Of a stretch of DNA of 64,000 nt, positions 3,478 through 46,252 are shown in pieces. Each line of letters starts with the position of its first letter. Position 1 is the stretch's first letter. This DNA is from Clostridium sp. 'deep sea' (GTDB lineage Bacteria; Bacillota; UBA994; PWPR01). Below the pieces are notes generated by a model. The model was given only the letters and a program-made list of their open reading frames with translations. It had not been told where the DNA came from and made no database searches. A program made the position numbers and the translations under genes. The stretch lies in contig NZ_CP063353.1 of NCBI RefSeq assembly GCF_014931565.1, positions 310,001 to 374,000 of the forward strand. Direction: 5' to 3'.

Positions 3478-3478
3478 T

Positions 3479-4774: not shown

Positions 4775-4895
4775 TATGACATAATTATTAAATTTCGAAA
4801 TAAGTAAAAAAACAACATATAAAATATATATAGGTATAATTTACTAAAAATATAGTAAATGATATAATTTAAGTGTCTATAAAAGGAGGTATAAA

Positions 4896-6272: not shown

Positions 6273-6273
6273 T

Positions 6274-7569: not shown

Positions 7570-7589
7570 TAAATCTGTAAATGGTGTAA

Positions 7590-7625
7590 AGAGGGCAATA
7601 GTAAAAACTAGTTGCTCTCTTTTTT
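7590..7625 (+). terminator. Terminator after the second pmbA
   Basis: AGAGGGCAA pairs with TTGCTCTCT (one G-T pair) and is followed directly by a run of T. It lies 20 nt after the pmbA copy-2 stop. Confidence 0.8.
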
Positions 7626-7626
7626 A

Positions 7627-7946
7627 GTTTCTATTTTATGTAAAAATTTATTAAAAAAAATACTGTTTCATATGACTTGAGAAAAAATGTTTTTATGGTA
7701 CTTTATTAGCCACAACAAAATAATTTACTATTTATTTATTTTCATGTAATAACAAATATTTAATTTTTAAATAATAACAGTTTAGTAGTGATGTTTTTTG
7801 AACTAATACTTATTTAGAATCTAAATTTGTTCTATAATGGTAGTAATAAATTAATCAAATACCTATTATGAAACAAAAATAATATTATAAAAAGGATGTT
7901 ATGCATTTTATTAACTACAGTAAAATAACTTATTAATATCTAGGGA
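7627..7946. other. AT-rich intergenic stretch, nothing recognised
   Basis: About 320 nt of very AT-rich sequence between the pmbA terminator and the end of the convergent membrane-protein gene. I see no convincing open frame with a ribosome binding site, no RNA gene and no repeat. Confidence 0.5.
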
Positions 7947-8297
7947 TCAGTATATATTATTAACTCCATTTATAATGTATATGATACCAGCTACTACTAT
8001 TGGAATTGTAATAGTTATAAAGCAAAATATACTTATATAAGTATGTAAATAAATAGCTAAACATATGCTTATTATTATTAGCATACAGCCGGATATTTTT
8101 GAGTTTTTATTAGCTATATAAAGTGTTAATAATAAAAAAATAGTGGTGACTTGCGAAAAGGCAAAAGTCAATATTTTTTCTTTACTATTTAACTCACTGA
8201 AAAAAACAGATATTGAGGATATGAAAATTATAACAGTATATATATAACAGATTATATCAGCAGTTTTTTTTATTGAATTTTCTTTAGGATAAAACAT
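7947..8297 (-). CDS. Small integral membrane protein, unknown
   Basis: A 116-residue hydrophobic protein with about four predicted membrane segments (roughly residues 15-35, 45-62, 68-85, 90-110) and a short charged N-terminus (MFYPKENSIKK). AAGGTGAT lies a few bases before the ATG. I do not recognise a family. It stands alone, divergent from the gene at 8439. Confidence 0.6.
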   Translation of the reverse strand: MFYPKENSIKKTADIICYIYTVIIFISSISVFFSELNSKEKILTFAFSQVTTIFLLLTLYIANKNSKISGCMLIIISICLAIYLHTYISIFCFITITIPIVVAGIIYIINGVNNIY

Positions 8298-8438
8298 AAC
8301 ATCACCTTGATTATTAGTATTTTGTTTTATTTAAACATTACTAAACTATTTATACTATATTTTGGAGCTTATTTAAAGATGTTAATGATTAATTTATTGT
8401 AAAAGGGGAATTAATACAATTAAACGAGGAGGTTTATT

Positions 8439-8630
8439 ATGGGTAAAACAAAACACAAAAGATTTGAGATTGTACATCAGCAAGGTTCACTAAGTCAATT
8501 TTTAATAATTGTTGATAAAGAAACCGGGGTTAATTACTTTCAAGGTATATCAGGTTATGCAGGAGGTTTAACACCATTATTAGACAGGAATGGCAATATT
8601 GTTATAACACCTATAACTAAAGAGTATTAA
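8439..8630 (+). CDS. DUF6440-like small protein
   Basis: A 63-residue protein with the pattern IIVDKETGVNYFQG followed by GYAGGLTPLLDRNGNIV. This resembles the small Firmicutes DUF6440 family, which has no known function. A strong GAGGAGG site lies before the ATG and a terminator follows, so it is a complete single-gene unit. No signal peptide or membrane segment is visible. Confidence 0.75.
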   Translation: MGKTKHKRFEIVHQQGSLSQFLIIVDKETGVNYFQGISGYAGGLTPLLDRNGNIVITPITKEY

Positions 8631-8639
8631 ATTTAAGGT

Positions 8640-8677
8640 AAGGAGTCGCTTATAAGGCGATTCCTTTTGTTTTTTAT
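8640..8677 (+). terminator. Terminator after the DUF6440-like gene
   Basis: AAGGAGTCGC and GCGATTCCTT form a stem with a short TTATAAG-type loop, followed by TTTTGTTTTTT. Confidence 0.85.
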
Positions 8678-9051
8678 TTGAATATTTTGTATATTATAAT
8701 TAAATAAAATTAAAGCGCTAAACTATTGTAGTAATGAGTACTTAAATAGATATGTTAAATATTGAGTTGCTTGTAGTATTTTAAAATTATATTAATGATA
8801 CTGTTAGTTTTAAAATATATTATATATAATATAAATATAATGCTAATTAAATATATAATGCTTTATTTTGTATGCATTTAAATTAATATTAGTTTTTAAA
8901 GATTACATAAAATAAAAGTAGTAACGCAAAATTTTTATATAAAATAGTCTACTTTTACAACATTAAACTTATCTTAATTGTATTAAAACTATGGATAGTG
9001 ATAATATGTACAAAGTATGATATATGTTTTACATTCATCAGGGGTGTTATA
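8678..9051. other. AT-rich intergenic stretch, nothing recognised
   Basis: About 370 nt of low-complexity A/T sequence between a terminator and the AbiEi-like gene. No gene or structured element is evident, though it must hold the promoter of the downstream gene. Confidence 0.45.
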
Positions 9052-9681
9052 ATGACGGACCGATTTTATATAGATTCAAGAAAAAGAAGTTTGGGTGATA
9101 TAAAAGAAATGTTTTACGGTAATCATGGTTACTTACAAATTAAAGATTTACGTGCAAAAGGTTTAAAATTAACAGATATAAGGTTTTTGCAAGAACAGGG
9201 TGTAATCATGAGAGTTGAACAAGGACTTTATAAGTGGATAGGTGTAAATAAATATAGCTTTATAAGTGACGTAGTCAATGCTGTGCCAAATGGAGTTTTT
9301 TGTTTGGTTTCTGCATTATATTTTCATGGTTTAGTAGATAAGATACCATCTATATGTTACATAGCTATACCAAATGGGTTAAATGGAGTTAGTTTACCTG
9401 TTTATCCTAAAATACAATTAATAAGTATGAAAGAGAATCATTTTCAATATGGTATTACTACAATTAATATTAATAATCAAAAAATTAGAATATATGATAT
9501 TGAAAAAACACTGTGTGATTGTTTAAGGTATAGAAGTAAAATTGGTCTTGATGTTGTTAAGTCTGCTTTTGTTACATATAAAAATAATTTTGAAGTAAAT
9601 GAAAAAAAGATTTGGCAGTATGGCACTTCAATGCGTATGAAGCTTATACTAAATCGTTATATACCAAAGTTTTTATTATAG
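9052..9681 (+). CDS. AbiEi-like antitoxin / transcriptional regulator, without a toxin partner
   Basis: Resembles the AbiEi family: an N-terminal winged-helix segment (about residues 20-60: GNHGYLQIKDLRAKGL..DIRFLQEQGVIMRVEQGLYKW), then the antitoxin core with LVSALYFHGL, and the conserved IYDIEKTLCDCLRYRSKIGLD. In type IV abortive-infection systems AbiEi represses its own operon and neutralises the nucleotidyltransferase AbiEii. No AbiEii gene follows; a terminator and a convergent nfo do. The ATG at 9052 is chosen over the in-frame ATG at 8998 because AGGGGTG lies just before it. Confidence 0.8.
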   Translation: MTDRFYIDSRKRSLGDIKEMFYGNHGYLQIKDLRAKGLKLTDIRFLQEQGVIMRVEQGLYKWIGVNKYSFISDVVNAVPNGVFCLVSALYFHGLVDKIPSICYIAIPNGLNGVSLPVYPKIQLISMKENHFQYGITTININNQKIRIYDIEKTLCDCLRYRSKIGLDVVKSAFVTYKNNFEVNEKKIWQYGTSMRMKLILNRYIPKFLL

Positions 9682-9690
9682 TAACTTAAT

Positions 9691-9726
9691 AAGAGGAGAT
9701 GTTACTAAACGGGTAACATCTTCTTT
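9691..9726. terminator. Bidirectional terminator between abiEi-like gene and nfo
   Basis: AAGAGGAGATGTTAC pairs with GTAACATCTTCTTT across a short loop. A-rich and T-rich flanks allow it to serve both convergent genes. Confidence 0.8.
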
Positions 9727-9731
9727 ATTAG

Positions 9732-10571
9732 TTATTTTACATATGAAAGAATTTTAGCAATTTCTGCTTTATATTCGCTGACGTTGGAGACTGGAGTTTC
9801 TAAAATAAGGGGTAAGTCATTAAGTTCCTTCATATTCACATAGTTTGATATTCCTGCATCACCTATTAAACCTTCTCCTATTTTTGCATGTCTATCTTTA
9901 TTACTGCCACAGGGATTTTGAGAATCATTTATATGTGATATATAAACTTTATTCATTCCTATACGCTTTTCAATATCATCAACAAGCTTGATAACTTGAT
10001 TAGGATTAAGAAAGTCGTAACCAGCAGCAAATAAATGGCAACAATCCAAACATACTCCAAGCTGACTCACATTACCTAATGAATCAATAATGCATTGAAG
10101 TTCTTCAAAGTTCTTTCCGATTTCTGTACCTTTGCCCGACATGGTTTCTAAACAGAGGATAGTATTACCATTATAATTTGTAAAAACATACTCAAGAGCT
10201 TTAATAATTCTTTTTAATCCCTCTATTAGTGTGCTTTTTGCAAAACTTCCTGGATGCATAACTAAATAATTTACCCCTAAGCTATTCATCCTCTCTAAAT
10301 CTTTTAAGATAACATCACAAGCAAATTGCCATACTTTAGTAGTAGGGCTAGCTGCATTCACCGTATACGGCAAGTGAGCTACAACTGGGGCAATTTTGTA
10401 AGTACTCCTTAATTGGTTGTTAAGCAAGATATCTTTTTCTGTTATTTTTTTTGCACTACTGCCACGTGGATTTCTAGAAAAAAACTGGAATGTTGTAGCA
10501 TTAACACTTTTAGCTGTTTCATAGATATGTTTAAATCCCTTTGATATTGATAAATGACAACCTAAATTCAT
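9732..10571 (-). CDS. nfo: Endonuclease IV (AP endonuclease)
   Basis: Cleaves abasic sites in base-excision repair; TIM-barrel trinuclear zinc enzyme. The 279-residue length is typical. Visible family motifs are GCHLSISKG at the N-terminus, NPRGS, the HPGS segment (VMHPGSF), CLETMSGKG, GVCLDCCHLFAAGYD, HINDSQNPCGSNKDRH and the GEG loop. A longer frame begins at a TTG at 10583, but that TTG overlaps the GGAGG site placed correctly for the ATG at 10571, so the ATG is the start. Confidence 0.95.
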   Translation of the reverse strand: MNLGCHLSISKGFKHIYETAKSVNATTFQFFSRNPRGSSAKKITEKDILLNNQLRSTYKIAPVVAHLPYTVNAASPTTKVWQFACDVILKDLERMNSLGVNYLVMHPGSFAKSTLIEGLKRIIKALEYVFTNYNGNTILCLETMSGKGTEIGKNFEELQCIIDSLGNVSQLGVCLDCCHLFAAGYDFLNPNQVIKLVDDIEKRIGMNKVYISHINDSQNPCGSNKDRHAKIGEGLIGDAGISNYVNMKELNDLPLILETPVSNVSEYKAEIAKILSYVK

Positions 10572-10621
10572 TTTTTCCTCCAATTTTTAAAAAATTAATG
10601 TAACCAATCTTAGCATTTATC

Positions 10622-10630
10622 CATAGTATA
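10622..10630 (+). promoter_or_regulatory. Putative sporulation sigma (E/K type) -10 element
   Basis: CATAGTATA fits the CATAnnnTA -10 pattern of mother-cell sigma factors and lies about 50 nt upstream of the ribosome binding site of the first small Gly-rich gene. The same pattern occurs before two related genes at 12373 and 12654. Inference from motif and context only. Confidence 0.4.
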
Positions 10631-10687
10631 ATCCAGATAGCGACCAATTAAAAGTTGCTAATCACTACAATCTAAGGAGGTATTAGT

Positions 10688-10936
10688 TTGGGAGCTGGAT
10701 TATTCCGAGGCTTTAAAGGCTTTACAGAAAATAACGAATTACTTTTAATTTTATTATTCATCGCTGTATTTAGTACTGGTTTTGGTGGTGGAAGAGGCGG
10801 TGGAGACTGCTACTGTGACGGTGAAGAGCACAATAATGATGATAGCCTTATCTTCTATATCATTCTCTTATTCTTATTCACCTATTGCTTTGGTTTTGGT
10901 GGAAACAACGCAAGATGTTGCCCTCCAGAAGAATAA
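10688..10936 (+). CDS. Small hydrophobic glycine-rich protein, unknown
   Basis: An 82-residue protein with two hydrophobic segments (ELLLILLFIAVF and LIFYIILLFLFTY) separated by a Gly-rich, Cys-containing linker (GGGRGGGDCYCDG); it ends in CCPPEE. The TTG start follows AAGGAGG at a good distance. The arrangement recurs in the products at 11029 and 12690. Tiny hydrophobic Gly-rich proteins of this style are often sporulation or coat associated in Bacillota, and a CATAnnnTA box lies upstream, but I do not recognise a named family. A terminator follows. Confidence 0.7.
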   Translation: MGAGLFRGFKGFTENNELLLILLFIAVFSTGFGGGRGGGDCYCDGEEHNNDDSLIFYIILLFLFTYCFGFGGNNARCCPPEE

Positions 10937-10949
10937 TACACTACATAGG

Positions 10950-10978
10950 GGCAGGGCATTAAGACCCTGCCTTATTTT
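10950..10978 (+). terminator. Terminator
   Basis: GGCAGGG and CCCTGCC form a GC-rich 7-bp stem with an 8-nt loop, followed by TTATTTTAT. Confidence 0.85.
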
Positions 10979-11028
10979 ATATTAGTATAGCTCAAAATAT
11001 AATAATAAATATGGGCAGGTGAAAGAAC

Positions 11029-11223
11029 ATGTTATTTAATAAAGACCTGCTACAGTCTGATGAATTGTTACTTATACTGTTGTTTATTGCTATTATCACC
11101 AATGGTTTTACAACTACAGAAAAAAACAAAATTGGTAAACAACAGTCTTTAATCTTCTTTATTATTGTAATAGCCATTTATTTTTGGTTAGGCGATGAAG
11201 ATGTAGTAGAAGACTGCTACTAG
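11029..11223 (+). CDS. Small two-helix hydrophobic protein, unknown
   Basis: A 64-residue protein with the same plan as the gene at 10688: ELLLILLFIAIITNGF, a short polar linker (TTTEKNKIGKQQ), then LIFFIIVIAIYFWLG and an acidic tail ending in DCY. It is probably a paralogue without the Gly-rich linker. CAGGTGAAAG precedes the ATG. The next gene begins 17 nt after the stop, so the two are probably co-transcribed. Function unknown; possibly a spore membrane or coat component. Confidence 0.65.
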   Translation: MLFNKDLLQSDELLLILLFIAIITNGFTTTEKNKIGKQQSLIFFIIVIAIYFWLGDEDVVEDCY

Positions 11224-11239
11224 AAGGGAGTAACATTTC

Positions 11240-11539
11240 ATGCGTCGCATGCGCCGTAGACCACAGGCACCCACCAAGAGAATCACTAGACAGCAACGCA
11301 GAACAAGACCTAAACCTACAAAATTAATTTCTGATAGAATTAATGGAGAGGTGCCTAACTCTTCTAATAAAGGTAGCAGAAGTTCTCGTTCTCGTTCTCG
11401 TAAGTCTAGGCTTCCTAAGTGGTTTGATCCGAATACGGAGGCTACTGGCAGGTTTATAGTATCCATATTTCGTAGTGATATGCGACAAGCTGGGCGCGAT
11501 ATAGTTGATATAATTGGTGAGATTCTGGACAAACGCTAA
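11240..11539 (+). CDS. Small strongly basic protein, unknown
   Basis: A 99-residue protein whose first ~60 residues are Arg/Lys/Pro/Ser rich (MRRMRRRPQAPTKR start; SRSSRSRSRKSR repeat encoded by a TCTCGT hexamer repeat). A predicted amphipathic C-terminal half follows (RFIVSIFRSDMRQAGRDIVDIIGEIL). AAGGGAG lies before the ATG. It looks like a nucleic-acid or polyanion binding protein; in this setting a coat or core-packaging role is conceivable but unproven. Confidence 0.6.
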   Translation: MRRMRRRPQAPTKRITRQQRRTRPKPTKLISDRINGEVPNSSNKGSRSSRSRSRKSRLPKWFDPNTEATGRFIVSIFRSDMRQAGRDIVDIIGEILDKR

Positions 11540-11565
11540 TATATAACACTGAGGAGTGGTATACA

Positions 11566-11880
11566 TTGAATAAAAAATTTCCTTCAGGTGACGTAAGTAA
11601 AATGAAAAATCAAATATTTAAAAAATATAATGTAGGATCCGAAAAAGAACTTATGAAAAAGTTACTTGGCACCTCAGACAAAAAAGAAATCAAAAAAATA
11701 TTATTGAATAAGTTAAATAGTTTGCCAGCCAACGATCCAATTAAGAAGATGGTTAAAAGCAAAGCAAAAGCTAAAGGCATAGGTACAGCAGAAATGGCGC
11801 AAGAGCTGTTAGAAGGTTTATCTCCTCAGCAGCGAAAGCAGCTTAAAGGTTTATTAATGAAAGGTAAGCCTAATAGATAG
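11566..11880 (+). CDS. Small basic helical protein, unknown
   Basis: A 104-residue Lys-rich, probably all-helical soluble protein (KNQIFKKYNVGSEKELMKKLLG...; ELLEGLSPQQRKQLKGLLMKG). The TTG start follows GAGGAGTGG. It lies in the same direction and cluster as the Gly-rich proteins, 26 nt after the previous gene. The product at 13067 shares the theme of short helical repeats. No known domain recognised. Confidence 0.6.
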   Translation: MNKKFPSGDVSKMKNQIFKKYNVGSEKELMKKLLGTSDKKEIKKILLNKLNSLPANDPIKKMVKSKAKAKGIGTAEMAQELLEGLSPQQRKQLKGLLMKGKPNR

Positions 11881-11897
11881 CAAAAAAATTACTTTAA

Positions 11898-11928
11898 ACG
11901 GTAGTCGTACCTTTAAGTACGACACCGT
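11898..11928 (+). terminator. Strong hairpin between small genes (attenuator or terminator)
   Basis: ACGGTAGTCGTAC pairs with GTACGACACCGT around a 6-nt loop. No T run follows, so it may act as a processing or attenuation hairpin before the Gly-rich gene at 11953. Confidence 0.55.
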
Positions 11929-11952
11929 TATACCATAAGGAGGGTTGGGTAA

Positions 11953-12252
11953 TTGGGAAACTATTGTAATGATAATACATACGGTGGTGGTGGCGGCGGT
12001 TTATTTGGCGGCGGCTTCGGCGGCTGGTGGTGGATTATATTAATCTTTGTGTTCTTCTTCTGGGGTGGCTTTGGTGAAGGATTTGGTAGTGGCTTTGGAG
12101 GAGGAGCTTATAACGATCCATGTAATCCATGTGAAGATAACAATGGTATTTTTGGTGGTTCATGGTGGTGGATTATATTAATTTTTGTATTTTTCTTCTG
12201 GGGTGGCTTCGGTGCTGGTAATCAGCAAGACTGCTACAATGGTTGCGATTAA
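11953..12252 (+). CDS. Glycine/tryptophan-rich hydrophobic protein with a duplicated membrane segment
   Basis: A 99-residue protein with two nearly identical membrane segments, each WWWIILIFVFFFWGGFG, embedded in Gly-rich runs and separated by an acidic Asn/Cys loop (NDPCNPCEDNN). The N-terminus is GNYCNDN and the end is QQDCYNGCD. The duplication is also clear at DNA level (GGTGGTGGATTATATTAAT occurs twice). The TTG start follows AAGGAGGG. No family recognised; the island context suggests a spore-surface or mother-cell protein. Confidence 0.65.
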   Translation: MGNYCNDNTYGGGGGGLFGGGFGGWWWIILIFVFFFWGGFGEGFGSGFGGGAYNDPCNPCEDNNGIFGGSWWWIILIFVFFFWGGFGAGNQQDCYNGCD

Positions 12253-12276
12253 TACATATTAAGTATTTGTACTAAA

Positions 12277-12300
12277 GGGTCGCTTAACAGCGACCCTAGT
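12277..12300 (+). terminator. Terminator-like hairpin
   Basis: GGGTCGC and GCGACCC form a 7-bp stem with loop TTAACA, followed by TAGTAGCTTTT. Confidence 0.65.
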
Positions 12301-12348
12301 AGCTTTTAACATAAAATAAAAGTAGTTTTCACTTTAATATTTTTGGGC

Positions 12349-12403
12349 TTGTATCACTTTCTTTAGCTTGTTCATATTATAAATTGAGCAAGAGAAGGAG
12401 GTA
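12349..12403 (+). promoter_or_regulatory. Duplicated upstream element, copy 1 (CATAnnnTA box inside an inverted repeat)
   Basis: The segment from TTGTATCAC to the AGGAGGTA site is repeated at 12630-12682. It has CATATTATA (12373-12381), a mother-cell sigma-like -10 box, flanked by CTTGTTC (12367-12373) and GAGCAAG (12386-12392), which form an inverted repeat. This could be promoter plus operator, or the 5' end of the transcript. Confidence 0.45.
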
Positions 12404-12408
12404 ATTCC

Positions 12409-12621
12409 ATGTTCTATGGAGGATACGGGTATGGTGGCTTTGGATTTGGAGCACTATGGCTTGTACTGCTATTTATCGGATTAGGATTCAGTGGACGTAG
12501 AAGATATTCGTATAACTACAGCTACGGTGGTAATAGTTGCTGTTATAATAGATCTAACTGCTGTAGACGTAGATATACACATTGTAGAATAAAAAAAAGA
12601 CGCTGTAGATGCAGGTATTAG
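12409..12621 (+). CDS. Small Gly-rich protein with a Cys/Arg-rich tail
   Basis: A 70-residue protein: MFYGGYGYGGFGFG, one hydrophobic segment (ALWLVLLFIGLGF), then a Tyr/Ser segment and a Cys/Arg-rich tail (NSCCYNRSNCCRRR...RRCRCRY). AGAAGGAGG precedes the ATG. It shares its upstream element and its MFYG(Y)G start with the next gene, so the two are paralogues. A cross-linkable surface protein is plausible from the Cys and Tyr content, but this is inference. Confidence 0.65.
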   Translation: MFYGGYGYGGFGFGALWLVLLFIGLGFSGRRRYSYNYSYGGNSCCYNRSNCCRRRYTHCRIKKRRCRCRY

Positions 12622-12629
12622 TCTAGGGT

Positions 12630-12682
12630 TTGTATCAGAGTTCTTGGCTTGTTCATATGATAAATAGAACAAGTTAAGGAGG
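12630..12682 (+). promoter_or_regulatory. Duplicated upstream element, copy 2
   Basis: Repeat of the element at 12349. CATATGATA (12654-12662) lies within the perfect inverted repeat CTTGTTC (12648-12654) / GAACAAG (12667-12673). The repeat arms are kept while the middle differs, so the inverted repeat itself may matter. Confidence 0.45.
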
Positions 12683-12689
12683 TAAGGCT

Positions 12690-12974
12690 GTGTTCTATGG
12701 TTACGGATGTAGTAGTCCATTACTTTTAATACTATTATTTATTGGAGTAGTTGGCTGTGGACGTTATGGCTATGGCGGTGGTTATAACAGAACAGGTAAT
12801 TGTGTTAGTAGCTGTAACAGAGGCTATAGAAAATATAGTGGTGTAAGTAAGAGGAGTTGTTATAGCCAAAGTAGTTGCGGAAGTTATGGCAACAATCGCA
12901 GTAATCGCTTAATTCTATACATCATTTTACTATTCTTATATGGTGGATGTTTTGGCGGTTACGGATTGTTTTAA
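12690..12974 (+). CDS. Small Gly/Cys/Ser-rich protein with two hydrophobic segments
   Basis: A 94-residue protein: MFYGYGCSSPLLLILLFIGVV, a polar Gly/Tyr/Cys/Ser middle (CVSSCNRGYRK; CYSQSSCGSYG), then LILYIILLFLYGGCFGGYG. This matches the two-helix plan of the gene at 10688 and the start of the gene at 12409. The GTG start follows AAGGAGG. A terminator follows. Probably a member of the same sporulation-type island; function unknown. Confidence 0.65.
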   Translation: MFYGYGCSSPLLLILLFIGVVGCGRYGYGGGYNRTGNCVSSCNRGYRKYSGVSKRSCYSQSSCGSYGNNRSNRLILYIILLFLYGGCFGGYGLF

Positions 12975-13002
12975 ATAATACTAAAACTGAATATGTATCT
13001 AT

Positions 13003-13030
13003 AAAGGCCACTTACGTGGTCTTTTTGTTT
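13003..13030 (+). terminator. Terminator
   Basis: AAAGGCCAC and GTGGTCTTT form a stem with a short loop, followed by TTGTTTT. Confidence 0.85.
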
Positions 13031-13066
13031 TAGATTACGAATATAATTTTTCAAGGGGGGATATTT

Positions 13067-13594
13067 ATGGATTACAATAAAAACGAAAATAAGAAAGATG
13101 CTTCAGCAAAACTAGCTGAAGCCATTGCTGGCCAAGATATAAATGGTTTAAAAGAGATGATTCTTGATCAAATGGGAATAGATAGTCAAGATGAATTAAT
13201 TGATAAAGTGCTAGATATAATTGATGATGAAGAGGATGTAAAAACAAAAGATGATGCTCAAGTAGTTGAGTTATATAAACAGCCTGAAGAACAGGATAGT
13301 ACAATACCTTATACCAATCCTGAGCCTGAGCCACAACCCCAAAAAAGAGAGCAAAAAAAAGAAACAAGTTCATCTGGCTTTGATCCTATTGATTTATTGC
13401 TTAATAATAAAGATTTATTACTAAATTTACTTAAAAAATCATTGTTTAATGTTAAGCCCGAAGATGATGCTAGGGTTCAACTTTTACATGCCCTCAAACC
13501 ATTTTGTAATGACAAAAGGCAGGGTAGAATAGATAGAGCTGTTCAAATGATGGGTATATCAAGATACTTAGAGAAATATAAAAAAAAGGAGTAA
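13067..13594 (+). CDS. Acidic soluble protein, unknown
   Basis: A 175-residue protein with three visible parts: a helical acidic N-terminus (about 1-75, including EMILDQMGIDSQDELIDKVLDIID), a disordered Pro/Gln/Glu linker (about 85-105, PEPEPQPQKREQKKE) and a helical C-terminal part (DLLLNLLKKSLFNVKPEDDARVQLLHALKPFC). AAGGGGGG precedes the ATG. It is followed 6 nt later by the next gene. The C-terminal region looks like a small helical domain also seen in some sporulation-associated proteins, but I cannot name it. Confidence 0.6.
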   Translation: MDYNKNENKKDASAKLAEAIAGQDINGLKEMILDQMGIDSQDELIDKVLDIIDDEEDVKTKDDAQVVELYKQPEEQDSTIPYTNPEPEPQPQKREQKKETSSSGFDPIDLLLNNKDLLLNLLKKSLFNVKPEDDARVQLLHALKPFCNDKRQGRIDRAVQMMGISRYLEKYKKKE

Positions 13595-13600
13595 TGATAT

Positions 13601-13912
13601 ATGCAGCAAGCATCCGTAAATATTGACTCTAATTCAAAAACTACAATGACTACAATAGGTCAGCAGTCACATATAGTTAACAGAGTAGAAAGGGCTTTTC
13701 GGGTTATATCTGACAGAGATAAAGAGATTTTAGAGCAAGTTAATCCAAGTAAATTTGAGCAAAATAAAGAAGAAGTTATTGAAGCAATTAAAGAAAAAAA
13801 GAGCTTTGAAACAGACGACATGCTTATTTTAGGTGTTATGACTTTTTTATTGAATGAAGGATTTATGGATAAAACTTTTTTATCAACACTCTTTTGGGTG
13901 TTTATGGCTTAA
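13601..13912 (+). CDS. Small protein, unknown
   Basis: A 103-residue protein with a Ser/Thr/Gln-rich start, then helical charged segments (RVERAFRVISDRDKEILEQV) and a hydrophobic C-terminal region (MLILGVMTFLLNEGFMDKTFLSTLFWVFMA). AAAAGGAG lies before the ATG. Likely co-transcribed with the acidic protein just upstream and terminated by the hairpin at 13917. No family recognised. Confidence 0.55.
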   Translation: MQQASVNIDSNSKTTMTTIGQQSHIVNRVERAFRVISDRDKEILEQVNPSKFEQNKEEVIEAIKEKKSFETDDMLILGVMTFLLNEGFMDKTFLSTLFWVFMA

Positions 13913-13916
13913 AGCA

Positions 13917-13943
13917 GATACCATTAGAGGTATCTTTTTTTTA
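13917..13943 (+). terminator. Terminator
   Basis: AGATACC and GGTATCT stem with a short loop and a long T run. Confidence 0.9.
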
Positions 13944-14029
13944 TTACTATTTTAGTTGATATACATAACAGTAGATATGTTAAAATTAGTTAAGTACAGT
14001 ATGTTAATTAAAGTAAGGTGGAGTTTGCA

Positions 14030-28000: not shown

Positions 28001-28262
28001 TAAAAATTCCCCCTTAAAAATAAACAGGACCAAACTCGCATAAGGACGAGTTTGGCCCGTGGTACCACCTTATTTTACACAAAAATTTTGTGCCTTAAGC
28101 ATGTTAACGATATGCCTCCGTAGTGCTTTTAACACTAATGCTCCAGATTGTATTTCGTTATTAGCACACAGCTTAGTTTTCACCCACCACTAAGCTCTCT
28201 AAATGTTACACTACTAACTACTGTATCCTTCATAGCTGTTACTATAATATTACCAGAAGTTT
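28001..28262 (-). promoter_or_regulatory. T-box riboswitch (tyrosine) upstream of tyrS
   Basis: On the minus strand the leader contains the T-box sequence AAGGTGGTACCACGG (about 28057-28071). A terminator follows, made of CCAAACTCG / CGAGTTTGG (28030-28055) and a T-rich tail. Stem I is visible as GCTTAGTGGTGGGTGAAAACTAAGC (given here as its two arms GCTTAGT and ACTAAGC). A TAC triplet (28150-28152) is placed as the tyrosine specifier in AATACAATCTGG. Uncharged tRNA-Tyr pairing would favour the antiterminator and turn on tyrS. Confidence 0.92.
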
Positions 28263-36882: not shown

Positions 36883-37479
36883 TTATATTCTAATTATTTT
36901 TCCCGCTTCATTTAATACCTCTGTAGCGGTGTACATATTAGTTATTTCACCAACTGCTAGGTTTTCTTTTTGGTGATAAAAATCTAAGCAAGTTCCACAG
37001 CTTAGTATCTCAACACCTTTTTTATCAAGTTCTTGTAGAGATTCAATTACAGCAGATTCTTTTAAGGCTAAGTTAATACCTCTATTCATTAACACAATAG
37101 CTTTAGGAGCAGTTTCAAGCTGGGTGAGTGAATAGAAAAAAGCCTTCATTAATACTTTTCCAAGCTTGTCATCACCAACTCCAAATACATCACTCATGCA
37201 GAATACTACCGTTCCATTATCTACAGTTTTAGGATTTGCAATAACTTGCTGTAGAGGTGCAGATGCCTTACCTTTAGTTATGGAAATGTGAAACTCTCCG
37301 TTTTTATTTTCAACTTTGGCACTACATTGTAGCTTTTTAGTAAGCTTTAATACGTTATTCTTAGCAACTTCACTGTCAACAACTACTATTATAGAGCCAT
37401 TACTTAACTCATCAATTGCTTTTTTAGTTTTTATAACAGGTTGAGGACAATTTAGTCCACGACAATCTATACTATTCAT
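36883..37479 (-). CDS. yedF: Sulfurtransferase-like selenium metabolism protein YedF
   Basis: A 198-residue two-domain protein. The N-terminal TusA-like domain (1-70) contains the CPxP motif in DCRGLNCPQPVIKTKKAI. The C-terminal DsrE-like domain ends with GVEILSCGTCLDFY and the strongly conserved LAVGEITNMYT. This form occurs mainly in genomes that use selenium, so it hints at selenocysteine or selenouridine use in this organism. AGAGGTATTTT-type site before the ATG. Stands alone next to a hairpin repeat. Confidence 0.92.
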   Translation of the reverse strand: MNSIDCRGLNCPQPVIKTKKAIDELSNGSIIVVVDSEVAKNNVLKLTKKLQCSAKVENKNGEFHISITKGKASAPLQQVIANPKTVDNGTVVFCMSDVFGVGDDKLGKVLMKAFFYSLTQLETAPKAIVLMNRGINLALKESAVIESLQELDKKGVEILSCGTCLDFYHQKENLAVGEITNMYTATEVLNEAGKIIRI

Positions 37480-40379: not shown

Positions 40380-40842
40380 TTATAACAAAGCAATAAATTA
40401 TTGTAAAAATAAAATTAACTTAAACTAGTAGAAAATAACAACGATAATTAATGGATATAAGCACTAAATAAATCCAAATAAAAAGTTTAAAAGAAAATAT
40501 TTACAAATAGTTTACATTCTGAAATTAGTGTGATATACTCCAAATAAGTGAAAATTAATTACATATTGCTTATATTTTATATCGTCTTTAAAAAACAAGT
40601 TTCTTTTAAACTATGCTGATTATCAATCAATAGCCTTTATTAAAATTGTGTTATTTTTGCAAAAGTTTTAATTTTTTATACCACATTTTTAGTTTTTAAA
40701 AGCTACAATGTGAACATGTTCGTGAGAATAAAAATAGTAAGTAAAACATCTAGATGGATTTCAATTTAGTTTATGAACCTACTTAAACCCTAATTGTATA
40801 AGGTCAGTCATTTTTTAATATGTTATAAATCTAAAAGAGTGT
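40380..40842. other. AT-rich region upstream of the RiPP locus
   Basis: About 460 nt without a credible gene. It contains the perfect palindrome GAACATGTTC (40712-40721), a possible operator, and a weak promoter candidate TTGTAT (40794-40799) with TAATAT (40816-40821) 16 nt away, close to the first gene of the modified-peptide locus. Confidence 0.4.
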
Positions 40843-41532
40843 ATGCTAATGAAAAATAAAAAATATATTTTCTTTGATTTAGGTGGTACATTAATAAACC
40901 TAAATAAGTCTCATTCAGAAATTTTGGATATGTATTTATCTGAGCAAAATATTTATCTATCTGAAGAGTCTATTATTAAGAGCATTAATGCAGCTAATAC
41001 AGGTGTATATGATGAAGTAAAAACTAAAAGTACATTTGCACTGTATCTTTCTCAAGCAGTTAATTTCATAAAACAAAGTCAAATAAATAGTAATAATCTC
41101 ACTAAGGTAATAGAGGTTTTGAGTAAAACGAATAGCTATATTAGAGATGATTGTAATTGGGAACTTGAACCGTACGCTATTGAGTTACTTAATTATCTAA
41201 ACGAAAAATATAACTTAGCTATTATCTCTAACTGGGATTTTTCCTTTCACAATATGATCAAACGATTTAAGTTTAATGATTACATGCAGTTTTGTATCTG
41301 CTCAGATGATATAGGCTATAGCAAACCAGACTCTCGAATTTTTGAGGTGGCTTTAGCAAGAGCTGGATTAAGCAAAAATCATGATTCAGTTTATGTTGGA
41401 GATAATTATGAATTAGATGTTCTTGCTTCAAAAGAATGTGGTTTTAAGCCCTATTTGTATAGTAAGCAAAAACACAATAAGTATGACTGTAAGGTAATAA
41501 ACAACTTAGCTGAGCTAATGCAATTGATATAG
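40843..41532 (+). CDS. HAD superfamily hydrolase
   Basis: A 229-residue phosphatase-like protein. Motif I FFDLGGTL (with Gly in place of the second Asp, as in several HAD-IA members), motif II LAIISNWDFS, motif III Lys in SKPDSRIF, and motif IV VYVGDNYELDVLASKECG. The first gene of the peptide-modification locus; the radical SAM gene starts 11 nt after it, so it is co-transcribed. It may act on a phosphorylated small molecule or peptide intermediate, or be a housekeeping phosphatase carried along; which one is unclear. Confidence 0.88.
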   Translation: MLMKNKKYIFFDLGGTLINLNKSHSEILDMYLSEQNIYLSEESIIKSINAANTGVYDEVKTKSTFALYLSQAVNFIKQSQINSNNLTKVIEVLSKTNSYIRDDCNWELEPYAIELLNYLNEKYNLAIISNWDFSFHNMIKRFKFNDYMQFCICSDDIGYSKPDSRIFEVALARAGLSKNHDSVYVGDNYELDVLASKECGFKPYLYSKQKHNKYDCKVINNLAELMQLI

Positions 41533-41542
41533 GAGGCTTGAA

Positions 41543-42718
41543 ATGAACGGTCAAGAAAAATTAATGGAGATAAAAGAGAATATTCTAAAAAACAAATTAG
41601 CCAAAAAGACTACAGCAAATCTCCTTACCTCTTTAGTATTTAAGTTAAATAAAATGTGTAATCTTAACTGCTCTTATTGTTATGTAGATTGTGAGACCGG
41701 TGGACCTCAAATAAAATTAGAAGTATTTAAAAAGATATTATCTAGTATAGATTTAAATAAGTATTCGGGAGATAGAAAGCTTGTATTAATTCTGCACGGC
41801 GGAGAACCCCTTATAAGCTATCAATTAATAAAAGACATAGTTCAATATATACAAAAAAATGGTTTAGATGATCATATATCAATAAATCTACAATCAAACG
41901 GGGTACTAATAAATGAAGAGATGATAGCTTTTTTTAAGAAACACAATATTGGCTTTGGAATAAGCATTGATGGTTATAATGATCAAACCAATGTTGGTCG
42001 GGTGTTTTATGATGGTACAAATAGTTTTACTGCAGTAGACAAAGCTATTGACTTGTGTATAAAAAATGATTTTAAGCCTGGTATAGCTACTGTAATATCA
42101 CATAGCAATGTAGATTATATGCTTGAGTTTTGCGAGTATTTAAAAAATAAAGGTATAAATTCTGTTGTCTTTAATGTACTAGTACCTCATGGAAGAGCAA
42201 GTAGTTTAGAATTCCCTGTTGAGAAATATATTGAAGCTAGTAAAAAAGTATACGATTGGATGAATGAGCAAAGCATACAAGGATTTAAAATAACTGAAAG
42301 AAACCTAGATCATTTACATAGAAAAATATTTAATGGTGGCTCTAATTATATGTGTTTAAACGCCCCGTGTGGAGCTGGTATTAATACTTTGGGCTTTGAT
42401 TTAGATGGCTCCATATATATTTGTGATCAGTTTGTTGGAGATGAAAATTTTATAATTGGACATATAGATAAAAATCTTAAACAGGTTATAAATGAGCCTC
42501 TTTCCATTAAGCTTATTAAGCAGTTTCAAAATCGAGACTTTAGTCATATAGAAAGCTGTGTGAAGTGTAGTTATCGCTACATATGTCCATTAGGTTGTCC
42601 AGCACAGGTTGTTTATAGAGATAAATCTCTTAGTGCTACTCCTCCACTATGTGAGTATTATAAAGCTATGATAACTTACATGATTAGTAAAAAAGGTGTT
42701 AAGGCCTGTAGTGATTAA
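41543..42718 (+). CDS. Radical SAM/SPASM peptide maturase
   Basis: A 391-residue radical SAM protein. The [4Fe-4S] motif is C39-x3-C43-x2-C46 in MCNLNCSYCYVDC; HGGEPL and SINLQSNGVLI are the usual barrel signatures. The C-terminal SPASM domain has CGAGINTLGFDLDGSIYICDQF and, near the end, CVKCSYRYICPLGC and a last CEYY, enough Cys for two auxiliary clusters. SPASM enzymes commonly cross-link or epimerise peptide side chains. AGGAGG precedes the ATG. The gene is followed by a 32-residue peptide, a PqqD-like protein and more peptides, making it the likely modifying enzyme of this locus. Confidence 0.93.
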   Translation: MNGQEKLMEIKENILKNKLAKKTTANLLTSLVFKLNKMCNLNCSYCYVDCETGGPQIKLEVFKKILSSIDLNKYSGDRKLVLILHGGEPLISYQLIKDIVQYIQKNGLDDHISINLQSNGVLINEEMIAFFKKHNIGFGISIDGYNDQTNVGRVFYDGTNSFTAVDKAIDLCIKNDFKPGIATVISHSNVDYMLEFCEYLKNKGINSVVFNVLVPHGRASSLEFPVEKYIEASKKVYDWMNEQSIQGFKITERNLDHLHRKIFNGGSNYMCLNAPCGAGINTLGFDLDGSIYICDQFVGDENFIIGHIDKNLKQVINEPLSIKLIKQFQNRDFSHIESCVKCSYRYICPLGCPAQVVYRDKSLSATPPLCEYYKAMITYMISKKGVKACSD

Positions 42719-42827
42719 ACAAAACACTAAAAATTTTAAATAAACTATGTAAATATATAGATTATATACAATAAATTGCTTATCTTAATTATTAGATAAA
42801 AACTTTTCTATGAGAGGGGGTGTAACA

Positions 42828-42926
42828 ATGTATACAACACCTAGTATTTTAACTACTTACTCAGCTAAGTCAGAGCATGCTGTTAAACCAATTGATGATT
42901 GGGGTTTATGGAGTAAGAGTAGCTAA
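42828..42926 (+). CDS. RiPP precursor peptide 1 (DWGLWSKSS family)
   Basis: A 32-residue peptide: MYTTPSILTTYS, a middle with AKSEHAVKP, then IDDWGLWSKSS at the C-terminus. GAGAGGGGG lies 8 nt before the ATG. It shares the N-terminal YTxPSILxTY and the DWGLWSKSS block with the three peptides at 45085-45946, which marks both parts as functional: probable leader-binding motif and core. It lies directly after the radical SAM gene and is followed by a hairpin. Unlike the others it ends right after KSS, so the proline-rich tail is dispensable. Confidence 0.82.
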   Translation: MYTTPSILTTYSAKSEHAVKPIDDWGLWSKSS

Positions 42927-42955
42927 ATCTTTTTGTAACAAAACTTTGTAATCAG

Positions 42956-42990
42956 TTGGGGCATAAGACACTATTCTTATGCCCCAAACA
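42956..42990 (+). terminator. Hairpin between precursor 1 and the PqqD-like gene
   Basis: TTGGGGCATAAG and CTTATGCCCCAA form a perfect 12-bp stem with an 8-nt loop. The T run after it is short, so it is probably a partial terminator that keeps precursor mRNA more abundant than the downstream enzymes. Confidence 0.75.
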
Positions 42991-43014
42991 AAACTTTTTA
43001 TAAGGAGTTATATT

Positions 43015-43290
43015 ATGATATTAACTAAAAATGAAAATATTTATGAAACAATGTTAGATGAAAACAAATATATTGTTTATGATGAAAATAAAGGACTTGT
43101 TCATGAAATAAATAATGTTGCATATTACGTTTTGGGTTTATGTAATGGGACTATGACCTGTGAAGATATAGTTGATGAAGTTATTAAAGAGTATGCTGGA
43201 GTAAAGCGTGAGGTTGTTGAGCCTGATATTAAACTAGTTATATCTCAGTTTAAACAGCTTGGAATACTAAATGAAGCAGCAGCTAAATAA
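43015..43290 (+). CDS. PqqD-like RiPP recognition protein
   Basis: A 91-residue PqqD-family protein (wHTH-like RiPP recognition element). Typical features are VYDENKGLVHEINNVAYYVLGLCNG (the DxxxGxxxxLN-type strand pair and helix), then TCEDIVDEVIKEY and a C-terminal helix (VEPDIKLVISQFKQLGIL). Such proteins bind the leader of a precursor peptide and present it to the modifying enzyme. The ATG at 43015 follows AAGGAG; the frame open from 42979 runs through the hairpin and is not used. It overlaps the next gene by 20 nt. Confidence 0.9.
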   Translation: MILTKNENIYETMLDENKYIVYDENKGLVHEINNVAYYVLGLCNGTMTCEDIVDEVIKEYAGVKREVVEPDIKLVISQFKQLGILNEAAAK

Positions 43291-44023
43291 TCCAATTAGC
43301 TATTCAATCATAGGCCTAGAGAGCTTATGGAAAACAAGCTTTGTTAATAAAGTAATATCGGCAACTAAACTACTAAAAAATTTTAAGATTAATAATATTG
43401 AATTAGTATTATGCTCGGGTATTAGTGAAAAACAGTTACAAGCTATAACTGCAAACTTAGCATATATAAATACTAAAATATATTCCATACATTTACCTAA
43501 AGATATGGGGCTAAATACATCTTTAATTACCGATTTTAGTTCATTTATAAAATTTGCAGAGCAAAACAGTTGTAATTTACTTGTTATACATGTTAATGAT
43601 AGCAAAATTGATTTAAACAAAGCGCATAAATTATATAAAAGCCTATTTAAAATTTGCCCAAAGCTTAAGCTGTTAATAGAAAATACTGCTAATATAACAA
43701 ATTTATTTGAGTCAGCTAAAGCCTTAAAGCAACATAACAATTTTGGCTTAACCTTAGATTTAGAACACTTATACCTTAGAAAAGAAGATATATTACTGTA
43801 CCAGACATTTTGTAATTATATTTATAATATTCACTTTAGAGATTATAGCCCTTTAAAAAGGTATGTTATGCCAGGTAAAGGTATTATTGACTTTAAGAAA
43901 ATCCACTCATTTATTAATGAGTATTACCAAGGAGTTATAACTATAGAATCAAAATTTAGTTCTATTAAAGACCTCATTATATGTAATAACTTCATGAATA
44001 ATTTTCTGGGAGGTCTTAATTAA
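43271..44023 (+). CDS. TIM-barrel protein, xylose isomerase/AP endonuclease 2 superfamily
   Basis: A 250-residue barrel with the superfamily's metal-site strands: IYSIHLP and LLVIHVN, the Glu in LLIENTAN, the Asp/His in TLDLEHLY, NIHFRDYSP, PGKGIIDF, and the final Glu in GVITIES. It could be a sugar-phosphate isomerase or epimerase, or act on the peptide. It begins inside the PqqD-like gene, so expression is coupled to peptide modification. It is not of the DUF692/MNIO sequence type that is common in RiPP loci, though the fold is shared. Confidence 0.82.
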   Translation: MKQQLNNPISYSIIGLESLWKTSFVNKVISATKLLKNFKINNIELVLCSGISEKQLQAITANLAYINTKIYSIHLPKDMGLNTSLITDFSSFIKFAEQNSCNLLVIHVNDSKIDLNKAHKLYKSLFKICPKLKLLIENTANITNLFESAKALKQHNNFGLTLDLEHLYLRKEDILLYQTFCNYIYNIHFRDYSPLKRYVMPGKGIIDFKKIHSFINEYYQGVITIESKFSSIKDLIICNNFMNNFLGGLN

Positions 44024-44038
44024 TGAAAGGTATTAGTA

Positions 44039-44854
44039 ATGAAAACACATACGTTAGTTTTTAATGAGATACAAGATAACACAGAATTTAGTTTTGGTAT
44101 TGAGTATACTTTATTTGCAAAGAGCTTTGGCTGCTTTTTAGCATTTAAAGAAGATCCATTATTTGAAAACATTTTTGCAAAATATGAAGATTTTTATTTA
44201 TTTAAAACAGGGGATATTGATATTAACAAATACAAGTCTCAAATAAAGTTTAATCACAAAAAAATAACTAAAAACACAAAAATTATATCAAAACAAGCAA
44301 ACTACAATCAACTAAATAGTAATATGGAGCTTTATAAAGAAGATTTTGTATTCTATACTGGAGCTGGTCTTTCAAAGGCGGCTGGAATTATGGATTCTTT
44401 TGAGCTAAAAGATAGTTTGTGTTTATATAATTTAAGCCAATTAAAAGAAGCCATAGTTAAAAACCCTCAAAGATTAAAAAAAGCATATGTTAGCTTTGTT
44501 AACTCTTTGTATTTTACTAATCCAACAGTAGGGCACAAAATAATTAAAACTTTACAAGATAAATACGATTTTTTGTTGTTAACGGAGAATATTGATTTGC
44601 TTCACCAAAAGACAGCAGCTAAGGTATATGCATATGATAAAATTAAGTATAAGCTACTAGAAGGAAAGAAAATAATGTTAACATTAGGGTTAGATGGAGA
44701 TCATCAAGGCGCTATAAAATATGTACAGGATAATAACTGTTTAGTTATAGCGGTAAATGTTGATAAACCTAACTATCTAAAAAGAAGAGATGTTTGGATT
44801 AAAGAAGATGCGCATACGTTTTTAAAAACATTATATGAGCATAGTGTTAGTTAA
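44039..44854 (+). CDS. Sirtuin-like NAD-binding protein lacking the zinc module
   Basis: A 271-residue protein. Residues 1-100 match nothing I know. Residues 102-271 follow the Sir2 Rossmann fold: FYTGAGLSKAAGI (108-116, sirtuin GAGxSxxSGI), NPTVGHKIIKTL, LLLTENIDLLHQK (182-191, TQNIDxLHxxAG), LTLGLDGDHQGAIKY (the GTSLxVxP region) and a final VNVDKPN. The section between TENID and GLDGD is only ~25 residues, so the Cys4 zinc ribbon and the usual catalytic HG of deacylases are missing. It may bind NAD or ADP-ribose without deacylase activity. AAAGG lies upstream; it starts 15 nt after the barrel gene. Confidence 0.8.
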   Translation: MKTHTLVFNEIQDNTEFSFGIEYTLFAKSFGCFLAFKEDPLFENIFAKYEDFYLFKTGDIDINKYKSQIKFNHKKITKNTKIISKQANYNQLNSNMELYKEDFVFYTGAGLSKAAGIMDSFELKDSLCLYNLSQLKEAIVKNPQRLKKAYVSFVNSLYFTNPTVGHKIIKTLQDKYDFLLLTENIDLLHQKTAAKVYAYDKIKYKLLEGKKIMLTLGLDGDHQGAIKYVQDNNCLVIAVNVDKPNYLKRRDVWIKEDAHTFLKTLYEHSVS

Positions 44855-44955
44855 CAGAAAGTTATATGAAAGTAAGTCTTTTTATTAATAGGTTTACTTA
44901 ATTTTTTGACCTAATATATACATAATATAGAAATACATCTAATATAATGCATAGT

Positions 44956-45084
44956 ATTGATTGTAAATAACTAACTTAACATTAGTTATTTATATAACAC
45001 AAACCTAGATTAGATTTGTGTGTTTGTGAGCAACTTTGTTCAAGAATATTGCTCATAAAAACCTTAATGAAAGGGGGCCTATCA
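44956..45084 (+). repeat. Structured leader repeat before precursor 2
   Basis: First unit of a ~350-bp tandem repeat. The leader folds as AAATAACTAA/TTAGTTATTT (perfect 10 bp), ACACAAA/TTTGTGT and GAGCAA/TTGCTC hairpins, ending in AAAGGGGGC before the ATG. The first ~130 nt are essentially identical to the copy at 45306. Confidence 0.8.
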
Positions 45085-45207
45085 ATGTATACATCACCTA
45101 GTATTTTAGCTACATATCCTGAGAGTCAGTACAACGGATCTAAGGGTGTTGGTGGTGATTGGGGACTTTGGTCTAAGTCTTCTCCATCTGAGCCAATCGA
45201 AAAATAA
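45085..45207 (+). CDS. RiPP precursor peptide 2 (DWGLWSKSS family)
   Basis: A 40-residue peptide: MYTSPSILATYPESQ, middle YNGSKGVGG, core DWGLWSKSS, tail PSEPIEK. The ATG at 45085 follows AAAGGGGG. A longer frame from 45016 exists, but its extra N-terminus runs through the structured leader and is not in frame with copy 4, so it is not coding. The GG just before DWGLW would be a natural leader cleavage point. Followed by its own terminator. Confidence 0.85.
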   Translation: MYTSPSILATYPESQYNGSKGVGGDWGLWSKSSPSEPIEK

Positions 45208-45253
45208 GCTTTAACTACCTGTTAGGATAATTAAAGTTCTTAACAAGTTTGTG

Positions 45254-45288
45254 CAAAGAGAGAATCGCAATGGGACTCTCTCTTTGTA
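45254..45288 (+). terminator. Terminator after precursor 2
   Basis: CAAAGAGAGA and TCTCTCTTTG form a 10-bp stem; the same hairpin follows each of the three tandem precursors. Confidence 0.8.
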
Positions 45289-45305
45289 TATAGGAAAATA
45301 CATTA

Positions 45306-45434
45306 ATTGATTGTAAATAACTAACTTAACATTAGTTATTTATATAACACAAACCTAGATTAGATTTGTGTGTTTGTGAGCAACTTTGTTCAAGAATATT
45401 GCTCATAAAAACCTTAATGAAAGGGGGCCTATCA
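45306..45434 (+). repeat. Structured leader repeat before precursor 3
   Basis: Second tandem unit; nearly identical to 44956-45084, including all three hairpins and the AAAGGGGGC site. This points to a recent duplication. Confidence 0.8.
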
Positions 45435-45563
45435 ATGTACACATCACCTAGTGTTTTAGCTACATATCCTGAGAATCAATACAACGGATCTAAGGATGTT
45501 GGTGGAGATTGGGGACTTTGGTCTAAATCTTCTCCTGGTGTGCCAGATAACCCAACAAAATAA
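45435..45563 (+). CDS. RiPP precursor peptide 3 (DWGLWSKSS family)
   Basis: A 42-residue peptide: MYTSPSVLATYPENQ, YNGSKDVGG, DWGLWSKSS, tail PGVPDNPTK. It differs from peptide 2 by a few residues in the middle and mostly in the tail, while the N-terminal motif and DWGLWSKSS are unchanged. Same leader, ribosome binding site and terminator as its neighbours. Confidence 0.85.
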   Translation: MYTSPSVLATYPENQYNGSKDVGGDWGLWSKSSPGVPDNPTK

Positions 45564-45609
45564 CTTTAACTTACCTATTAGGATAATTAAAGTTCTTAAC
45601 AAGTTTATG

Positions 45610-45644
45610 CAAAGAGGGAATCGCTATGAGACTCTCTCTTTGTA
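45610..45644 (+). terminator. Terminator after precursor 3
   Basis: CAAAGAGGGA and TCTCTCTTTG stem, one changed pair compared with the copy after precursor 2. Confidence 0.78.
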
Positions 45645-45665
45645 ATTAATAAAAATATATTGATA

Positions 45666-45796
45666 GATTGTAAATAACTAACTAAATCTTAAAGTTGGTT
45701 ATTTATATAACACAAACCTAGATTAGATTTGTGTATTTGTGGGCGACTCTGTTCAAGAGTAATGCTCATAAAACCTTAATGAAAGGGGGCCTATCA
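45666..45796 (+). repeat. Structured leader repeat before precursor 4
   Basis: Third, more diverged unit. The first hairpin is now AAATAACTAACT with AGTTGGTTATTT, so the sequence changed but pairing is kept and lengthened. The third hairpin has changed loop-side bases (GGGC...GCTC). The preserved pairing despite changes argues that the structure matters. Confidence 0.75.
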
Positions 45797-45946
45797 ATGT
45801 ATACATCACCTAGTATTTTAGCTACATATCCTGAGAATCAATATAACGGAATTAAAGAAATCGGTGGCGATTGGGGACTCTGGTCTAAGTCTTCTCCAGA
45901 TTATCCAATTGATCCAGTTCATCCAGTACAACCAGTACAACCTTAA
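45797..45946 (+). CDS. RiPP precursor peptide 4 (DWGLWSKSS family)
   Basis: A 49-residue peptide: MYTSPSILATYPENQ, YNGIKEIGG, DWGLWSKSS, then a longer proline-rich tail (PDYPIDPVHPVQPVQP). AAAGGGGGC precedes the ATG. The tail shows how freely sequence after KSS can vary, which favours DWGLWSKSS as the modified core and the tail as a follower or spacer. Confidence 0.85.
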   Translation: MYTSPSILATYPENQYNGIKEIGGDWGLWSKSSPDYPIDPVHPVQPVQP

Positions 45947-45986
45947 TTTATCTATTAGGATAATTAAGGGTCTTATCAACTTTATG

Positions 45987-46021
45987 CAAAGAGAGAATTT
46001 CTATGAAATTCTCTCTTTGTA
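45987..46021 (+). terminator. Terminator after precursor 4
   Basis: CAAAGAGAGAATTTC pairs with GAAATTCTCTCTTTG (15 bp) around a TAT loop; a longer stem than in the other two copies. Confidence 0.85.
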
Positions 46022-46252
46022 TTTACTAAAATAACTATTTTTATAGAATGAAGATAAAAAAAATTATTAATAGTAGTTGCTTAAAAGATAAAAAACTGGG
46101 TAAATATCTTTATGTGAGTTCTTATTAGGTTAAACTAGTATAGAAGTGAGGCAATTTGTAAAATGGGTAAATTTTATGTAAGTTAGTTGTCAAGCTATCT
46201 CTCAAACTGTATACTACAATAAGACTTACGATGTTGATAAGGAGGATACATA

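Follow-up and report, generated by a model that had tools for sequence, protein, structure and literature searches.

The locus described here lies in a 64-kb window (the whole stretch of DNA that was analysed, to which all unprefixed coordinates refer) of Clostridium sp. 'deep sea', an anaerobic bacterium with a genome of 3.83 Mb. By its gene content, it is a putative locus for a ribosomally synthesized and post-translationally modified peptide (RiPP). The block spans positions 40849-45946 (~5 kb), with every gene on the forward strand, and encodes a HAD-superfamily hydrolase, a radical S-adenosylmethionine (SAM)/SPASM maturase, a stand-alone PqqD-type RiPP recognition element (RRE), a TIM barrel, a SIR2-like protein and four short peptides, all of which are present where the original prediction had placed them (Table 1). 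The domain assignments (PF04055, PF13186, PF05402, PF01261, PF02146 and HAD_2) lie above the Pfam cut-offs. The genes are packed tightly, overlapping or almost abutting, with pepA between the maturase and RRE genes.

Table 1. Genes and putative expression signals of the block (window coordinates).
Feature	Position	Strand	Details
Promoter-like site ahead of the block	40511..40539	+	TTTACA-17-TATACT, TG before the second hexamer; consensus match only
HAD-superfamily hydrolase (opens the block)	40849..41532	+	PF13419 (HAD_2), 75 bits
Radical SAM/SPASM peptide maturase	41543..42718	+	391 amino acids; PF04055 and PF13186
Precursor peptide A (pepA)	42828..42926	+	32 amino acids; MYTTPSILTTYSAKSEHAVKPIDDWGLWSKSS; no tail
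Strong hairpin between pepA and RRE gene	42945..43000	+	Fold z-score -7.0
Stand-alone PqqD-type RRE	43015..43290	+	91 amino acids; PF05402, 42.8 bits (cut-off 23.4)
Xylose-isomerase-like (AP_endonuc_2) TIM barrel	43271..44023	+	PF01261, 44.6 bits; 20-nt overlap with RRE gene
SIR2-like Rossmann protein	44039..44854	+	PF02146, profile positions 1-95 of 180
Structured leader of pepB	44956..45084	+	Three hairpins; z-score -3.96
Precursor peptide B (pepB)	45085..45207	+	40 amino acids; MYTSPSILATYPESQYNGSKGVGGDWGLWSKSSPSEPIEK
3' hairpin after pepB	45225-45300	+	z-score -5.1
Structured leader of pepC	45306..45434	+	Identical to that of pepB
Precursor peptide C (pepC)	45435..45563	+	42 amino acids
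3' hairpin after pepC	45585-45660	+	z-score -3.9
Structured leader of pepD	45668..45796	+	Diverged copy, same fold; z-score -5.33
Precursor peptide D (pepD)	45797..45946	+	49 amino acids; longest tail (PDYPIDPVHPVQPVQP)
3' hairpin after pepD	45960..46030	+	z-score -6.0

The four peptides (32-49 residues) share an N-terminal MYTxPS(I/V)LxTY segment and an invariant DWGLWSKSS segment, and differ in linker and tail; a tail follows DWGLWSKSS in pepB, pepC and pepD, and none does in pepA. This set, first proposed from reading the DNA, was borne out by a degenerate DNA pattern for D-W-G-L-W, which has four matches in the window against 0.01 expected, and by a peptide profile whose only matches across the whole genome are these four peptides. 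Two weak matches of the profile in genomes of the phylum were rejected, one (L027) as a chance frame within a larger gene and the other (L028) for a stop codon inside the match. The ribosome-binding sites of the peptide genes match. Among pepB, pepC and pepD the core shows 1-2 silent differences, and the linker 4-11 base and 2-4 residue differences. Between pepA and pepB, 10 of the 27 bases encoding DWGLWSKSS differ without changing a residue, switches of serine codons from AGT/AGC to TCT included; measured against pepB-D as a group, pepA differs at 10-11 of 27 bases, again with no residue altered. We conclude that the DWGLWSKSS core is under selection as protein, because all of these changes are silent and none of 400,000 random simulations of base change of the size seen between pepA and pepB kept the residues.

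Cysteine is absent from all precursors, and the thioether chemistry of sacti- and ranthipeptides is therefore excluded for these peptides. The core can be read as two triads side by side (WGL, WSK) or, more widely spaced, as a W-x-x-W pair. GG stands ahead of the core in pepB-D; double-glycine export was considered and rejected, the only C39 domain found in the genome lying in a 208-residue frame, which is too short for an ABC exporter.

The maturase carries the radical SAM motif CNLNCSYC (CxxxCxxC; Cys39, Cys43 and Cys46) and seven SPASM cysteines (276, 294, 339, 342, 348, 352 and 370) in the pattern CX2CX5CX3C...C. It has no fused RRE, and the adjoining PqqD-type protein supplies the recognition domain. 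With a SPASM maturase bearing the full set of cysteines, a stand-alone RRE and precursors conserved at both ends, the RiPP reading of the original prediction is supported; the locus has the general make-up of RiPP loci, namely a peptide-modifying enzyme beside a short precursor in which recognition and core segments are conserved. Among the NCBIfam models listed, the maturase exceeded the cut-off of no curated one. The best single model was HxsB (157 bits, cut-off 370), followed by sulfatase maturase (146/349), PapB (145/340), CbpB (140/375) and DynA (139/450), and the models of enzymes forming darobactin or triceptides scored lower still: YhhB (105/445), GrrM/OscB (102/310), DarE (NF038005; 85.4/650) and FxsB (73/370), with AmcB also far below its cut-off. 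The proposed comparison with RiPP class models thus gave no curated class match among the models listed, in line with the earlier view that the gene combination is not a recognised class. The core has a known parallel all the same, since in WSKS it resembles darobactin.

A congener with an empty site shows the extent of the unit. In this other genome of the genus, the flanking DUF4349 and calcium-ATPase genes are 278 bp apart, compared with 5,917 bp in the window, and at the nucleotide level similarity returns 49 nt ahead of the ATPase gene start. In a sister genus, one genome has the DUF4349 gene and hrcA side by side. Because the empty site lacks everything from the HAD gene through pepD together, we conclude that the HAD, maturase, RRE, barrel and SIR2-like genes and all four peptides form one accessory block, gained or lost together. 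This supports the earlier suggestion, then based on tight packing, that the HAD, barrel and sirtuin-like genes belong to the pathway. The G+C content of the block (29.4%, against 33-36% in the flanks) fits acquisition but does not prove it. A flanking direct repeat (40414 and 46124) is not claimed as an integration footprint, since an equally long shared word occurred in 21 of 200 shuffles.

The three helper proteins are unfamiliar, and the barrel and SIR2-like proteins are orphans in the phylum genomes. The HAD protein scored below the cut-offs of the NCBIfam REG-2-like and YjjG-like models. The barrel holds candidate metal ligands of the xylose-isomerase-like superfamily (IHVND, IEN, DLEH, IHFRD and IES), had no match to DUF692/MNIO, and in the phylum genomes has only remote relatives (24-31% identity). 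Its fold matches to 3tva and 1yx1 are weak, come from a low-confidence, alignment-free model (predicted local distance difference test score, pLDDT, 48) and only repeat the Pfam assignment. For the SIR2-like protein such a prediction was unusable (pLDDT 33). Its match to PF02146 is confined to the first half of the profile, the N-terminal ~100 residues have no assignment, and no specific relative was found in 398 phylum genomes, only generic sirtuin halves. The NAD-binding motifs GAGxS (GAGLS) and TxNID (TENID) are kept, and the protein may bind NAD or ADP-ribose; a working deacylase is unlikely, because the catalytic His-Gly and the zinc CxxC motif are both missing. The protein called sirtuin-like at first is thus similar to SIR2 but falls outside the sirtuin deacylases, lacking their functional motifs.

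Several putative signals suggest how the genes are expressed. Promoter-like sites are overall fewer than in shuffled sequences, and the site at 40511-40539 is weak evidence. The hairpin behind pepA is probably a partial terminator favouring the precursor over the enzymes. A 129-nt leader of three hairpins precedes pepB, pepC and pepD (z-scores -4.0 to -5.3) and occurs at only these three places in the genome; it has no Rfam match, as holds for the block as a whole, and may act in regulation or stabilise the mRNA. Together, leaders and hairpins likely serve the dosage of precursors over enzymes.

Relatives were sought in 398 genomes of the phylum, 84,980 species genomes, viral contigs, plasmids and phages; the species genomes and viral contigs were searched by exact 8-residue patterns, which relatives with diverged motifs could escape. 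The peptides have no relative in any of these collections, metagenomes lying outside the search. The 8-residue patterns found no relative of the maturase in the species genomes or viral contigs either, again with metagenomes outside the search; in the phylum genomes its best relatives reach ~30% identity, are ~460 residues long (the length of SCIFF maturases), and the one in its own genome is a curated SCIFF maturase. A match to a characterised family, or a close maturase homologue without peptides nearby, had been named in the original prediction as evidence that would speak against it; neither was found, and of the latter there was no case since the searches gave no close homologue, with or without peptides. 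A role in anti-phage defence was rejected, PADLOC giving no match beyond a generic radical SAM similarity to viperin.

From these analyses, we consider it somewhat better than an even chance (probability of about 0.55) that the product of the locus is a cross-linked, so far uncharacterised RiPP of cyclophane (triceptide- or darobactin-like) type, in which RRE and SPASM enzyme link Trp to Lys. The RRE would bind the leader (MYTxPS[IV]LxTY) and present the bound precursor to the maturase, which would join the side chains of Trp29 and Lys31 in W-S-K (pepB numbering). A second link would probably form at Trp26, either to Trp29 or inside the W-G-L triad, so that the cyclophane would be fused or tandem. 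The predicted Trp29-Lys31 link rests on resemblance of motif, not on homology. By analogy with darobactin, housekeeping proteases would trim leader and tail. The barrel, HAD and SIR2-like proteins, to judge from their co-acquisition, may tailor the peptide or serve immunity or control, and having several precursor cassettes, equipped with structured leaders and hairpins, would raise the precursor dose.

Some observations weigh against this interpretation. Judged by NCBIfam scores, the maturase stands no closer to cyclophane-forming enzymes than to other families. Since no relatives were found in the other genomes searched, conservation across species offers no confirmation of the core, the leader or the linkage of the genes. 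The block contains neither an exporter nor a peptidase, as the first reading had noted; darobactin clusters encode their own exporter. For the missing peptidase darobactin offers a precedent.

In darobactin, the core WNWSKSF is followed by QEI and closed by a Trp-Trp ether and a C-C bond between Trp and Lys; unnamed host proteases cut off leader and follower (PMC9055067). Residues 3-6 of that core read WSKS, as in the present peptides, and both systems combine a short leader-core-follower precursor with a single radical SAM/SPASM maturase and no dedicated protease (PMC9055067). They differ in the spacing of the tryptophans (i,i+3 in WGLW, i,i+2 in WNW), in the end of the core (SS against SF), in the maturase, which is far below the DarE cut-off, and in the clostridia-like host, the extra TIM barrel, HAD and SIR2-like genes and the lack of an exporter here. 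WGLWSKSS follows neither daropeptide core pattern, WNWx(K/R)xF or WT(F/Y)RF of cluster IV, and has only WSKS in common with them. Triceptides (XncB, OscB/GrrM, YhhB, FxsB) carry, by definition, cross-links from i to i+2 at aromatic residues, and the tandem aromatic-X-X triads W26-G-L and W29-S-K beside a SPASM enzyme resemble them (PMC11002830). However, the RRE here is stand-alone, the maturase lies under the cut-offs of the known three-residue-cyclophane families, and the enzyme products that the review lists include none with Lys or Leu at position 3 (PMC11002830). To SCIFF/ScfB ranthipeptides the likeness is the length of the nearest whole-genome matches of the maturase (~30% identity); those systems have a fused RRE and a Cys-rich precursor, whereas the precursors here are free of Cys.

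It is unlikely, though to be considered, that the locus is tryglysin-like, with a WGK-type fusion of Lys31 to the Trp29 indole, no beta-carbon cyclophane and a product inhibiting close relatives. Tryglysins carry a Lys-Trp linkage in W-G-K and are bacteriostatic (PMC13361665), and the W-x-K motif and stand-alone PqqD-type partner are shared with these WGK RaS-RiPPs (WgkC model, NCBIfam). However, the RRE reached 17.4 bits where the WgkC model requires 110, the 25 best-scoring models for the maturase, each with at least 72.8 bits, do not include WgkB (cut-off 650), and, unlike in tryglysins, no Rgg/SHP regulator adjoins the block. Slightly more doubtful is that the radical SAM enzyme makes no cross-link but, for instance, epimerises or otherwise alters a single residue. 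SPASM enzymes are chemically diverse and HxsB is the best single model, but thioether bonds are impossible without Cys and an epimerase has no obvious need for an invariant W..W-S-K. About as improbable is a small redox cofactor or signal in the manner of pyrroloquinoline quinone (PQQ), with the core excised and processed by the barrel, HAD and SIR2-like proteins into a non-peptide compound. A peptide with a stand-alone PqqD-type protein and a radical SAM/SPASM enzyme recalls PqqA, PqqD and PqqE, and the three further enzymes are of a kind that acts on phosphorylated or nucleotide-like small molecules; on the other hand, there is no Glu-Tyr core, the RRE falls under the cut-off of the PqqD model (21.5 bits, cut-off 46), the four precursors have unlike tails, and the block is accessory and species-restricted and holds no client enzyme. 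That the peptides are no substrates at all, but short tandem open reading frames by chance beside an unrelated radical SAM operon, is very improbable: no relatives elsewhere demonstrate the linkage, but the core is under purifying selection, pepA is embedded between maturase and RRE genes, the ribosome-binding sites match and all genes are absent together from the congener.

Other loci with radical SAM genes were seen. L049 (G000:C1:2258000-2276000, 7004-13961) has three radical SAM/SPASM genes, one more radical SAM gene and a subtilisin-like (mycosin/QhpE-like) protease, in an odd place for maturases, among phage-tail-like genes judged on reading alone (amidase-like, holin-like and baseplate-like). 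L051 (G000:C1:3053000-3068000, 7785-12451) is an apparent RiPP locus with an 87-residue PqqD-sized protein, a radical SAM/SPASM gene, a SPASM-half protein, the peptide MKYNVPRIKSLEEVSRGCGAGDCCNGKPTEPEQKFN and an ABC transporter. L052 (G000:C1:1332000-1345000, 2154-7426) has a 474-residue PapB/SCIFF-like maturase, an adjoining 31-residue Cys-rich peptide (MINLTDKVRGLALQEISKPGDGSCNEGCCNK) and ABC transporters. A search of the genome with the DynA model also found three neighbouring radical SAM frames of ~440 residues each (G000:C1:547835-554600). Elsewhere in the window are an ordinary T-box leader (28039-28242, reverse strand; RF00230, 121 bits) and a 198-residue protein fusing TusA-type and DsrE-type domains (36883-37479, reverse strand).

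By their defining features, the locus belongs neither to the daropeptides nor to the known triceptide families or the tryglysins. Within the collections searched it is a previously unclassified radical SAM RiPP locus, which may work like members of these groups. A bolder and improbable proposal is a new RiPP class, in which a fused or tandem Trp-Trp-Lys bicycle would be derivatised by the metal-dependent barrel, the HAD protein and a SIR2-like protein of altered catalysis that binds NAD or ADP-ribose; these might attach, for example, a sugar-phosphate or nucleotide-derived group, all in a lineage without a known darobactin-like peptide. Radical SAM enzymes that link Trp to Lys yield rigid peptides, darobactin and tryglysin, both of which are antibacterial. 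The present block joins a distant enzyme and its RRE to three unfamiliar helpers and four ready substrates, all travelling together; if the cyclophane reading is true, the WSK link would have arisen in another enzyme lineage.

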